DNA from: an uncultured Clostridia bacterium
GTDB taxonomy: Bacteria; Bacillota; Clostridia; Oscillospirales; Ruminococcaceae
DNA length: 64,000 nt
Direction: 5' to 3'
NCBI GenBank assembly: GCA_947626165.1
Contig: CANQRG010000008.1
Location: 62,001-126,000 of the forward strand
Below the pieces are notes generated by a model that saw only the letters and a list, made by a program, of their open reading frames with translations, had not been told where the DNA came from and did not search any database. A program made the position numbers and the translations under genes. Shown here piece by piece: positions 4,859-64,000 of this stretch. The first letter of the stretch is position 1. Each line of letters starts with the position of its first letter.

Positions 4859-5452
4859 ATGATTTACGGTAAATATAAAAATGCAAGAAATGCCGCATGG
4901 CAGTGTCTTATTGATTATAATTTGACCTCGCTTCCTGTTTCGGTTATAGGTATTGCAAAATCGGCAGGAATAAAGGTTGTAAAAAACAGCAAGGTAAACT
5001 GGCTTTTACCTAATGAAAGCGGTATAAGTATTATTTTCAATAAACGGTGGTACATTGTTTATAATGACAACTGTTCCAGACAAAGATGCCGATTTACTGT
5101 TGCGCATGAATTAGGGCATATCTTTCTCGGTCATGAGCTGGAGAAACGAAATCAAATCACAAAAACCATTAAACAGTCCGAATCTTATGCCGAACAAGAG
5201 GCAAACATATTCGCGTCAAGACTGTTAGCTCCTGCTTGTGTTATATGGGCGCTTGGCTTAAAAACACCGAACGAAATATCGTCTGTTTGCGATATTTCAC
5301 ACACAGCGTCTGAATTTCGAGCCGAGAGAATGAAAACACTGTATAAGCGTAATAAATTTCTTACAGCGCCTCTTGAAAGAGAGGTATATAACAATTTCAA
5401 AGTATTTATTCAAAAATCAAAAGGAAATCAAAATAAAAACACTTTTATATAA
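4859..5452 (+). CDS. ImmA/IrrE family zinc metallopeptidase
   Basis: A protein of 197 residues carrying HELGH at residues 83-87 in the context VAHELGHIFLGHE, followed by YAEQEANIFASRLLAP. Together these form the gluzincin-like motif (two zinc-binding His, catalytic Glu and a downstream Glu) of the ImmA/IrrE family. Known members cleave and inactivate an XRE repressor after DNA damage or a quorum signal. The gene lies 60 bases after the XRE regulator and is co-oriented with it. A hairpin overlaps its weak ribosome site. The C-terminal 60 residues are basic and not recognised. Confidence 0.85.
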   Translation: MIYGKYKNARNAAWQCLIDYNLTSLPVSVIGIAKSAGIKVVKNSKVNWLLPNESGISIIFNKRWYIVYNDNCSRQRCRFTVAHELGHIFLGHELEKRNQITKTIKQSESYAEQEANIFASRLLAPACVIWALGLKTPNEISSVCDISHTASEFRAERMKTLYKRNKFLTAPLEREVYNNFKVFIQKSKGNQNKNTFI

Positions 5453-50215: not shown

Positions 50216-50800
50216 TTATGTCGTCTCTTTATATCCCATAATTTCATATACATAATATCCAACACTCCCTTTAGGTTGCCAGTAATAGGTTTTACCCTTA
50301 CTTATTTGTGCTATAGAACCGTTTACAACTTCACTACCTTTCCAAGTAGTAGTAACATCCTTATAACTAGTATTAGTATATGAGGATGGCGGTGTAAGAA
50401 CTGTACATAATTGAGCATCTCCAGTAGATGAACTATTACCTATAAAATAAACCTTTATTATACTTGGTATAAAGTTAATAACTTTATATGTACTAGTAGC
50501 ATCATAGCCTCCTGCCGTTGTAAAATGCAATGTACCATAAGCATATTGCGGAATAATAGATTTATCCGCTGCCGCTTTAACCGCCGCCGGTGTAGCAGCA
50601 ACTCCACTCGATACTCCGCTTGTACTGGTCGTGCTGTCAGATAATTTCACATGTCCATAATTAGAACTGCTGCCTAAACCATAAATAGTGTTTGGCGACG
50701 CATGACTTGGTAAGTTGTTTTTTGATACTAAGTATTCGTCTATATATGTCTTTAAAAGAGACCATAATTCTTCTATGTTTTCATTACTTACAACTGACAT
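50216..50800 (-). CDS. Phage tail fibre tip protein, paralogue of the 53380-54156 product
   Basis: A 194-residue protein. Residues 1-90 contain NTIYGLGSSSNYGHVKLSDS, a segment often found in tail-fibre shafts, and VAATPAAVKAAAD. Residues about 85-194 are strikingly like the C-terminus of the 258-residue protein at 53380-54156: both have AQLCTVLTPPSSYT, TTTWKG and end YEIMGYKETT. This shared tip is presumably the receptor-contacting end. It is the last gene of the late operon. Confidence 0.75.
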   Translation of the reverse strand: MSVVSNENIEELWSLLKTYIDEYLVSKNNLPSHASPNTIYGLGSSSNYGHVKLSDSTTSTSGVSSGVAATPAAVKAAADKSIIPQYAYGTLHFTTAGGYDATSTYKVINFIPSIIKVYFIGNSSSTGDAQLCTVLTPPSSYTNTSYKDVTTTWKGSEVVNGSIAQISKGKTYYWQPKGSVGYYVYEIMGYKETT

Positions 50801-53379: not shown

Positions 53380-54156
53380 TTATGTCGTCTCCTTATATCC
53401 CATAATTTCATATATGTAATATCCAACATTCCCTGTAGGGTGCCAGTAATAGGTTGTACCCTTACTTATTTGAGCTATAGTACCGTTTACAACCTTATTA
53501 CCTTTCCAAGTAGTAGTAACCGACGTATAGCTACTGCTAGTATATGAGGATGGCGGTGTAAGAACTGTGCATAATTGAGCATTTGCACTAGAACTTGTGC
53601 CTATATAGTAAATTTTTATTATGCTAGGGACAAAGTTAATAACTTTATAGTAACTATCTGCATTGTCGCCTCCATCCGAAGTGAAATGCAATGTACCGCA
53701 AGCATATTGAGGAACAGAAGAACTAGTAATCTTGTCCTCTAAACTAGATATATCATTAGATAAACTAGATATATCTGTAGATGTCGCTAAAGATGTCCAG
53801 CCTGTAGTAGTATATGAATATGAACCAGAAGATGAACTTCTAGTACGCCTTACTCCTCTAACAAACAATGCAGAGGGATATGTGCTTGAAGCTGTTGACG
53901 TATATCCAGTTGTGATAAATAACTGTCCTACTCTTTCTCCCGTACTGCTACCGTCTGCTGATGGAAATACACAAAGTACAAAATTCCTGCTTACAATTGG
54001 AATATTTGAATATGAAACTGTTCCAAGTCCGTAATACCATCCGGGTGTAAACACAGTATTCAAATCTGCTCCACTTTCTAACTCAATGCCGTTTTTCATT
54101 AACGAAATAGTATCGTCTATCTCTGTTCCTGTAAATATACTGTTGTAATCGCTCAT
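53380..54156 (-). CDS. Phage tail fibre protein with tip domain shared with the 50216-50800 product
   Basis: A 258-residue fibre protein. The N-terminal half has a beta-rich receptor-type segment (FTPGWYYGLGTVSYSNIP). A short helical coil (DISSLSNDISSLEDKI, about 130-146) leads to a 110-residue tip whose sequence, ending YEIMGYKETT, is nearly duplicated in the last gene of the operon. It lies between the tail hub gene and the lysin. Confidence 0.75.
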   Translation of the reverse strand: MSDYNSIFTGTEIDDTISLMKNGIELESGADLNTVFTPGWYYGLGTVSYSNIPIVSRNFVLCVFPSADGSSTGERVGQLFITTGYTSTASSTYPSALFVRGVRRTRSSSSGSYSYTTTGWTSLATSTDISSLSNDISSLEDKITSSSVPQYACGTLHFTSDGGDNADSYYKVINFVPSIIKIYYIGTSSSANAQLCTVLTPPSSYTSSSYTSVTTTWKGNKVVNGTIAQISKGTTYYWHPTGNVGYYIYEIMGYKETT

Positions 54157-62613: not shown

Positions 62614-62988
62614 CTACTTTGCAGATACCTCTATGTGAGGCAATCCGCCGTACAGCATACTGTCAACAGAACTAACCGTTACAAACTGCGGATACTGCTC
62701 ACGGAACATCTTCATACTGCTTGAAACAGCCTGCGGAGAAGTATTGTCAAATTCAAACTCGGCAATACCCTTTACAAGCATATCCTTTTGAGGTGTTTCG
62801 GGTATGTTGTCTCCATATATTGAGCTTTTGTAAATATATACGGTTGTACCGTCACAGGAGGTCAGACCGCTTTTTAAAATATTAGCCTGTTGGCTTGACC
62901 GCCAATAAACTCCCCTTATCTCGTGTCTGATGAAACCCTGCGTGTCTGTATCGTATTTATACAGTGTACAATCTGCATTAATCATCAT
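62614..62988 (-). CDS. Minor capsid protein (Minor_capsid_1-like)
   Basis: A 124-residue protein. The ATG at 62988 overlaps the stop of the connector gene (ATGA) and is preferred to a GTG at 62997. It contains GVYWRSSQQANILKSGL and DMLVKGIAEFEFD, typical of the small adaptor family before Minor_capsid_2. Likely part of the head-tail joint. Confidence 0.75.
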   Translation of the reverse strand: MMINADCTLYKYDTDTQGFIRHEIRGVYWRSSQQANILKSGLTSCDGTTVYIYKSSIYGDNIPETPQKDMLVKGIAEFEFDNTSPQAVSSSMKMFREQYPQFVTVSSVDSMLYGGLPHIEVSAK

Positions 62989-63380
62989 AATGCACACCGC
63001 CTTTTACGCTTAACGCCACGATACAGCAGTCCTGTTCCCGAAAGCCACTTATATACAATACCCTTTATCTTTTTCTGCTGGTTTTGCATAGCCGTATCTG
63101 TACTTTCATAGCTTTGTGACCAGCCTCCAACACTCTCTGATGATATTCCTCCGTGCTTTCTTTCTGCTTCATCATTTTTGCAAATTATCTCTGCAATTTC
63201 ACAAGCACAAAGCATAGCGCACTCCGGCAACTCGGAGATATCTGATAATGACGGAGCATACCTCATTAGAGTTTTTAAAGCCTGTCTTATGTAAAATGCA
63301 AATGAAGCCTCGTCAATAACAGCCTTTTTGCCTATAAGATATTCAGTTTTATAAAATTCATATTTGATATGCTCGGTCAT
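62985..63380 (-). CDS. Phage head-tail connector protein
   Basis: A 131-residue helical protein (FAFYIRQALKTLMRYAPSLSDI, then CAMLCACEIAEIICKNDEAE) of the size and place of the gp6/gp15-like adaptor that joins portal to tail. It overlaps the next gene by 4 bases. Confidence 0.7.
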   Translation of the reverse strand: MTEHIKYEFYKTEYLIGKKAVIDEASFAFYIRQALKTLMRYAPSLSDISELPECAMLCACEIAEIICKNDEAERKHGGISSESVGGWSQSYESTDTAMQNQQKKIKGIVYKWLSGTGLLYRGVKRKRRCAL

Positions 63381-63395
63381 TTTAAATACTCCTTA

Positions 63396-63785
63396 TCAGT
63401 CTTTTGTTTCAAGAGTTGCCTTTGTAAAATTAAGTGAAAGTACTGATGTACCGTCAACCTCAATCTCAAAAGCGGTCTTATTGCTCGGAACTCTCAGAAT
63501 AATTTCAGGATCATAATCCATATCCGTTTTTCCCTCTGCCGCTTTACCATTCTTCTTGATTGTCATTTTACTTCCGGCTTTTCCTGTTAGCTTAATAGGC
63601 ATATAGTTTCCTGTCTGTTCAGTTGCCTTGTCGCTAAACTGTTCAAAATCACCGACATATTTTAACGTGCCGATAACCGAACCATCATCAAGAATTTCAA
63701 CATCTTCGCCGATTAAATCCCCAACATTTTTCCCAAGGACAGTTTCATTTTTGTCAATGAGTGTTACAATGTCGGGGCTTATTAG
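63396..63785 (-). CDS. C-terminal extension of the upstream phage structural protein, reached by -1 frameshift
   Basis: The frame is open from the frameshift site to 63396 (129 residues) but has no ATG, GTG or TTG until the ATG at 63602, although the family-like text LGKNVGDLIGEDVEIL lies before that ATG. Residues after the site begin LISPDIVTLIDKNE; the second half (MPIKLTGKAGSKMTIKKNGK onward) looks beta-rich and Ig-like. AGGAA at 5 bases before the ATG at 63602 means a short 68-residue form may also be made. The extension would be added to a minority of capsid-type subunits. Confidence 0.65.
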   Translation of the reverse strand, partial: LISPDIVTLIDKNETVLGKNVGDLIGEDVEILDDGSVIGTLKYVGDFEQFSDKATEQTGNYMPIKLTGKAGSKMTIKKNGKAAEGKTDMDYDPEIILRVPSNKTAFEIEVDGTSVLSLNFTKATLETKD

Positions 63786-63791
63786 TTTTTT
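63719..63791 (-). promoter_or_regulatory. Programmed -1 ribosomal frameshift signal
   Basis: On the minus strand the zero frame reads GTA AAA AAC TAA TAA. The heptamer A AAA AAC (63791-63785) is a canonical slippery site. After a 7-base spacer (TAATAAG) a 10-bp stem follows: CCCCGACATT (63777-63768) with AATGTTGGGG (63728-63719, one G-U). The 39-base loop could form a pseudoknot. Confidence 0.75.
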
Positions 63792-64000
63792 ACCGTACCG
63801 CTGAACTTTGCAATTACTACCTTTGATTGATTTGTAAGTGCTACAGTATAGATTTTATCGGCTGAAATATCGGTTGTTCTTGGTAGCGTATTACGCTCTG
63901 TTTCAACATTGGTATCACGCTTCAGGTATACTGTAAGTGCCGAAGTCTCATCTTCTGTTTCATTGTCCTGCGTAAGTTTTACAATAGGACATTTATAGCA
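63782..64000 (-). CDS. Phage structural protein, probably major capsid, C-terminal part only
   Basis: The frame enters from the right edge and runs 72 residues to TAA TAA at 63784. It ends IYTVALTNQSKVVIAKFSGTVKN and looks beta-rich. Being immediately upstream of the connector gene it occupies the place of the major capsid protein in A118-like phages. The N-terminal majority is outside the window, so the identification is by position and size class only. Confidence 0.5.
   Translation of the reverse strand, partial: CYKCPIVKLTQDNETEDETSALTVYLKRDTNVETERNTLPRTTDISADKIYTVALTNQSKVVIAKFSGTVKN

Follow-up and report, generated by a model that had tools for sequence, protein, structure and literature searches.

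Features at the 3' end of the capsid gene

The window, by which we mean the whole stretch of 64,000 nucleotides that was analysed, comprises bases 62001-126000 of contig C8 in a 1.84-Mb draft genome of 16 contigs. It contains the 3' part of a gene that extends past the edge of the stretch to the equivalent of position 64645 (L002:3783-4646). The 287-aa product matched the N4-gp56 major capsid model TIGR04387 over residues 5-281 (167.5 bits, cut-off 60) and PHROG_544 (E 6e-81). The initial annotation had guessed that this protein was probably a capsid, and the match above the curated cut-off, together with the PHROG match, bears out the guess. On the minus strand, the order is terminase-, portal- and morphogenesis-like ORFs, a 200-aa scaffold-like ORF, the capsid gene, an extension in the -1 frame, and more head and tail genes; all of these roles except that of the capsid are predicted from sequence and position. 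The features at the end of the capsid gene are:

63782..64000, minus strand: major capsid gene, 3' part, zero frame (N4-gp56 family)
63785..63791, minus strand: slippery heptamer A AAA AAC, in X XXY YYZ register with the capsid frame
63779..63784, minus strand: tandem zero-frame stops TAA TAA (63784-63782, then 63781-63779), abutting the heptamer
63768..63777, minus strand: 5' arm of the candidate stimulator stem, CCCCGACATT (folding and shuffles)
63719..63728, minus strand: 3' arm of the candidate stimulator stem, AATGTTGGGG, with a 39-nt loop between the arms (folding and shuffles)
63396..63788, minus strand: C-terminal extension domain in the -1 frame, (K)LISPDIVTL...ETKD plus stop (homology, all-beta model)
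62985..63380, minus strand: next gene, context outside the unit, its ATG 15 bases past the extension's stop codon

Two other observations were made in the surroundings. An Rfam search of L002, L047 and L102 gave nothing but a tRNA and a skipping-rope RNA, the latter (62.7 bits, L002:5482-5561, minus) lying outside the window and upstream of the scaffold-like ORF. By eye, the window ORFs at 50216-50800 and 53380-54156 (minus) resemble each other over their last 110 or so residues, which end in YEIMGYKETT; these shared ends are perhaps duplicated tail-fibre ends.

Slip site, -1 frame and hairpin in the window

The last codons of the zero frame are GGT ACG GTA AAA AAC TAA TAA. The heptamer A AAA AAC, which has the strict X XXY YYZ form taken as the criterion for programmed -1 frameshifting, lies directly before the stop. 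The -1 frame has 129 open codons after the slip, and its first ATG, GTG or TTG comes only at 63602, which is residue 61 and falls within the conserved domain. Both points had been made in the initial annotation and hold in the minus-strand sequence. The junction peptide K-K-L-I-S that it proposed would require the P-site tRNA to slip before AAC has been decoded; it would not be produced by tandem slippage, in which both tRNAs slip together and the junction becomes V-K-N-L-I-S.

The heptamer is separated by a 7-nt spacer (TAATAAG) from a 10-bp stem. The spacer and the pairing across 39 bases had also been described earlier, and the coordinates agree. The 3' arm sits further 3' than in relatives, which have loops of 9-22 nt. 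When the 73 nt from the stop were folded, the z-score was -4.5 and none of 200 shuffles was equally stable; a fold that included the heptamer and more flank gave a z-score of -3.5, with one of 200 shuffles as stable. An equally strong stem starting 3-8 nt into the region was present in 36 of 20000 dinucleotide shuffles. A candidate pseudoknot joining the G run to a C run of the loop was set aside on reading the sequences; the window and L066 seem to be without it. Every statement of the initial annotation about the sequence checked out on the minus strand, and its interpretation of this layout as a frameshift site is supported.

Homologues and predicted fold of the extension domain

The -1 frame product (P0001, 130 aa) had one clear PHROG match, to PHROG_31690 (unknown function; E 1.9e-7). 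Using tblastn against phage records, we found the domain in Flavonifractor phage Chenonceau, MT835625 (43-44% identity) and MT835616 (29%). The alignments to Chenonceau and MT835625 begin at the first residue after the slip: the pairing of LISPDIVTL with LIGSDTLTL crosses the region past the stop, and translated similarity thus reaches back to the slip site. The two phages share the junction G GGG GGT TAA, which has the -1 register of the window, and their domains follow capsids that have no blastp link to the window's capsid.

An AlphaFold2 model built with 21 relatives predicts that the domain is all beta (pLDDT 92.3, pTM 0.85). A structure search of BFVD with the model gave three matches at E <= 0.001, two to uncharacterised phage proteins and one to a nameless entry. 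Matches to PDB structures were weak, with many rows of Ig or Fn3 type, and by sequence there was no PDB match below E 0.34. No Pfam family matched the window's domain above cut-off. Pfam searches with 21 members of the domain family gave weak matches to five families (best E 0.001), none of Ig type by name.

Relatives of the domain also occur in frame inside long proteins (L059, L062 and L117, with open frames of 1163, 1336 and 857 aa), which are perhaps bacterial surface proteins. Because homologues sit inside long repetitive proteins, a binding role is suggested, and the domain may function in binding or adhesion.

Geometry of the junction at related loci

We searched for the domain in 297 genomes of the family with the single protein, and in 394 genomes of the order and 391 of the class with profiles. 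There were matches in 4, 13 and 7 genomes, respectively, counting the window's own; the sets may overlap. Homology identified 20 distinct loci at which the domain overlaps an upstream ORF (the anchor) out of frame: the window, L045, L047, L048, L049, L051, L052, L053, L054, L055, L057, L058, L064, L066, L069, L078, L079, L114, L116 and L118. The overlap was -1 at all 20 and +1 at none. A slip motif ending at the stop was present in 19 of them (GGGGGAA in 11, GGGGGGT in 3, AAACCCT in 3, AAAAAAC in 1 and TTTAAAA in 1). The exception, L045, has the -1 arrangement without a recognisable slip motif, yet its stem was equalled in only 4 of 1000 shuffles. GGGGGAA, the majority motif of the relatives, does not have the strict X XXY YYZ form.

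Other arrangements were found at a few loci. The domain is fused in frame to an anchor at L043 and L063, and L046 is a stand-alone domain gene with an ATG start and the sequence GGAGGG upstream. At L112 and L115, both from genus g294, a small ORF is followed in the same frame, past a TGA stop, by the domain, and there is no ATG, GTG or TTG for about 30 residues after the TGA; the small ORF of L115 is a Pfam phage cement protein. These two loci perhaps append the domain by stop readthrough. At L058, L069 and L094 the -1 tail after a single junction is about double length, and those of L058 and L069 have two tandem domain matches. L056, L060 and L061 are outside the analysis, and L077 ends at a contig end. 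Two further searches for related loci, one started from P0001 (10 stretches) and one from a second domain (8 stretches), gave no relative.

Prediction of the domain from the slip site

We scanned for a 21-base pattern, GGGGGAATRANNGGGNCTGAC, that consists of the slip site and the 5' arm of the stem and leaves the domain and the 3' arm unspecified. It matched 6 stretches in IMG/VR, and at all 6 a virion-like ORF ends with the domain. In 84,980 genomes there were 26 matches in 25 stretches, and the domain was found at 21 of the 26. A profile that contains no pattern-found sequence (A1) gave the identical counts of 6 and 21. The 20 genome contigs that have both the pattern and the domain all belong to one assembly series with 'Lapin' isolate names (rabbit by name only), and the genome sample is therefore narrow; IMG/VR and the phage records are separate from this series. 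Four matches without the domain were L086, L087, L095 and L096. At L084 (minus, match 207-227), slip site and stop are retained at the end of a homologous capsid whose -1 tail is a different sequence of 59 aa, so signal and domain can come apart. When the homology and pattern loci were pooled, there were 38 distinct -1 loci, 37 of them with a slip motif (18 were selected for the motif). GGGGGAA is used by 29 of the 38, a count that is uninformative on the frequency of this motif since 18 were found through it.

An RNA model of the cassette gave nine matches in the 394 genomes at E <= 3.2e-9, all at known domain loci; eight of these are its own building sequences, matched by construction, and G640:C4 alone was new. 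Among the weaker matches (L128-L136, E 3e-4 to 0.008), none was a virion ORF ending at a slip site with the domain, L129 being too short to judge. Two further matches, L139 and L140, were discarded as the reverse strand of known cassettes. The model did not detect the window or L066. In a search for the A AAA AAC variant with a shifted 3' arm elsewhere, none of five pattern matches ends a capsid with the domain. Because the RNA model misses the window and its variant was not found elsewhere, the assignment of the window to the cassette rests on its domain and layout.

Stems and covariation in relatives

We tested stems anchored at the expected spacing, because whole-segment folding energies separated junctions from controls poorly (mean z-score -1.98 for 17 junctions and -1.00 for 27 controls, with six of the controls below -2). 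At 14 of the 17 junctions tested, two of which (L054 and L064) carry the identical cassette, the anchored stem of 9-12 bp was equalled in at most 8 of 1000 shuffles. Stems were weak at L049 (797 of 1000 shuffles), L051 (144) and L052 (55). L066 has an unrelated 12-bp stem in the same place. Among the 27 control capsid ends, chosen from 38 capsid relatives by dropping near-duplicates and one short contig and tested with 200 shuffles each, the best stem was equalled in 2 of 200. L114, L116 and L118, which were found afterwards, are outside this test.

Compensatory change in the stem was seen in the cassettes of relatives. In an alignment of 36 rows (27 distinct), 95.1% of cells were paired, four of nine pairs varied on both sides, and none of 500 shuffles reached any of five measures; the rows had been selected for a 22-nt loop, a choice biased towards paired rows. 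With the partner shifted by one base, pairing fell to about half. In the rows found by pattern, the pattern fixed eight of the nine 5'-arm positions, leaving pair 16:49 free. This pair is UA in 11 cassettes, GC in 10, GU in 2, AU, CG and UG in one each, and unpaired in one. Both of its bases fall on the first position of a codon in the -1 frame, so substitutions that preserve the pairing alter the encoded amino acids. The alignment leaves out loci with another loop or no such cassette (the window, L045, L049, L066, L069, L085 and both copies in L102) and those without the domain (L084, L086, L087, L095 and L096).

Anchor genes and the limits of the shared DNA

The anchors of the domain-bearing loci fall into 14 blastp clusters, some of which have a PHROG in common. 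A PHROGs scan of 18 anchors at -1 loci besides the window's gave nine families, among them both head and tail proteins; the anchor of L101 had no PHROG match. The families are:

PHROG 544, 10, 212 and 3270: head
PHROG 909: small head protein
PHROG 88 and 2645: major tail
PHROG 3099 and 5707: unknown

We compared the DNA of 17 pairs of loci that we chose ourselves. In 13 pairs with anchors from different blastp clusters, similarity begins 0-19 nt before the heptamer. It stops 352-419 nt after the stop codon in seven of these pairs and at 7-322 nt in the other six, which have less similar domains; one pair, L066/L057, is a 14-nt match and carries little weight. The similarity runs on upstream in the four pairs whose anchors are related. 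One contig (L102) has two cassettes (pattern matches at 2314-2334 and 4997-5017, minus), one after a PHROG_10 capsid and the other after a PHROG_88 major tail protein, and cassette and domain are 81% identical between them over 402 aligned columns. Two copies (L116 and L118) are also present on G887:C1, after ORFs that cluster with those of L049 (major tail) and L066 (protease-capsid).

Relatives without the domain, L003 and L007 among them, share 64-73% identity with the window's capsid, and no domain was found in six frames at 39 IMG/VR loci with capsid relatives (37-73% identity), of which L033 and L036 break off no later than the end of the capsid. Among capsids that do carry the domain, the closest to that of the window has 23% identity. 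The window's domain is 53% identical to that of L079, the capsid of which was not matched at E <= 10. On many unrelated shell and tail proteins of phages of gut bacteria, the combination of slip site, hairpin and domain has the appearance of a single portable unit.

Domains of this kind could also recombine onto 3' ends in any frame by chance, with frameshifting selected later each time and no travelling signal. Such chance landing would fit the five kinds of slip motif, which differ between lineages, and the existence of in-frame, stand-alone and same-frame-after-TGA versions. It is hard to reconcile with the absence of the +1 arrangement from the 20 homology-found overlaps, with slip-site and stem DNA that different-cluster anchors have in common and that is similar from the slip site onward, and with the two copies on head and tail genes of L102. 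We consider chance landing unlikely.

Separate translation and other accounts of the overlap

Ribosomes might instead terminate and reinitiate, or start separately, in the -1 frame, at the overlapping codon or a little beyond it, making the domain a separate protein. The junction codon is ATG at 8 of the 38 distinct -1 loci and TTG at one (L055), and an ATG, GTG or TTG comes within the first 12 codons at 17 loci and within 30 at 31. In the Chenonceau record the domain is a gene of its own, annotated to start 45 bases downstream of the end of the capsid, and the stand-alone gene at L046, with its ATG and upstream GGAGGG, points the same way. Against a separate start, the junction codon is ATA at 22 loci, TTA at 5, CTA at 1 and CTG at 1, and in the window 60 residues precede any start codon, although only 7 of the 38 loci, the window included, are without ATG, GTG or TTG in the first 30 codons. 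At the GGGGGAATGA junctions the Gly-rich motif abuts the ATG, so the normal spacing is absent. Translated-frame similarity back to the slip site and the in-frame fusions at L043 and L063 also disfavour this account. A start codon is not a conserved part of the unit, though it is present in some loci, and we regard separate translation as quite improbable.

Transcriptional slippage, which would yield a shifted mRNA, could be considered given the run of six A in the window. A run of six is short for transcriptional slippage, and both the covarying hairpin and the motifs seen in relatives (five or six G, AAACCCT) fit ribosomes better; this explanation is very improbable. A one-base assembly error or mutation that broke a single capsid-domain gene, which the in-frame relatives (L043, L063) and the 16-contig draft might suggest, is the least credible of all, given an out-of-frame split at the anchor stop that is always -1 at 38 distinct loci with 14 anchor clusters, a slip motif in 37 of the 38 (18 selected for it), a covarying stem and the window's two tandem stops.

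Proposed mechanism

We conclude that, very probably, -1 slippage extends a minority of capsids, with slip site, hairpin and domain forming a portable cassette of about 410 bp. We infer the slippage itself, its efficiency and the display of the domain on the virion. Most ribosomes would stop at the TAA and release the 287-aa capsid. Some would pause at the hairpin with AAA in the P site and AAC in the A site, and tandem slippage back one base at A AAA AAC, stimulated by the stem 7 nt downstream, would carry them past both stops to add about 129 residues, the predicted all-beta domain, leaving a minority of subunits extended. At GGGGGAA, the A-site codon GAA would re-pair imperfectly with GGA.

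The cassette's 5' edge would be the slip site. Because of this edge, a cassette recombined onto the 3' end of another virion gene would bring its own dose control. It is likely that the recoding signal and the surface domain move as one unit of about 410 bp with the slippery site as left boundary, the frameshifting being inherited and not a later repair.

Relation to known systems and implications

Virion proteins extended by frameshifting are described for T3/T7 gene 10, Lactobacillus phage A2 and Listeria phages A118, A500 and PSA (PMC5009743). As in those phages, a major virion protein would be extended at its C terminus by a shift near its end. Unlike those described there, the window's domain family has its own -1 signal and many unrelated anchors; the PSA shift is +1. 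Phages often gain surface domains by frameshift, and the explanation that this review reports is chance landing. It describes Ig-like domains (Fraser et al. 2006) as promiscuous and able to land by chance in any frame. The present domain is likewise small and occurs on varied virion proteins, in frame or frameshifted. It differs in that all 20 homology-found overlaps are -1, signal and domain are conserved together, and no Pfam family matched above cut-off.

A_AAA_AAC_1 is called a proven case in PMC4066793. In its nucleotides, GGGGGAA is described as corresponding to a class of slip motifs with about a thousand SEA-PHAGES sites, for which the PRFect authors suggest G:U pairing; as described there, nearly all of the SEA-PHAGES frameshift genes are annotated as tail assembly chaperones (PMC10885494). 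The GGGGGAA motif is a likeness to the -1 frameshift of tail assembly chaperones such as lambda G/GT. Neither lambda product is in the mature virion according to PMC5009743, whereas here a structural subunit is predicted to be extended. In Orsay virus and picorna-like viruses, the capsid is extended by -1 frameshifting in a minority of ribosomes; these are unrelated animal RNA viruses, and the description in PMC5009743 includes no portable cassette. Among the literature titles and abstracts searched, from which subscription journals are mostly missing, none concerned a frameshift signal that travels together with a virion domain. What is new is the portable cassette with its own signal; frameshift-extended virion proteins are already known.

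Flavonifractor phage Chenonceau is one of the 13 prophages of the OMM12 consortium that are listed as induced (PMC10197239), and because this carrier is inducible the portable-cassette idea is testable. Annotation can cut such genes: the capsid in the Chenonceau record stops at the stop codon, and the domain is a separate 'hypothetical protein'.

The joint conservation of signal and domain on many unrelated virion proteins argues that partial dosing is itself selected. If the unit moves as proposed, its landing on an abundant virion gene (capsid, major tail or small head) would install sub-stoichiometric display with a built-in ratio, and it could be copied between genes of one prophage.
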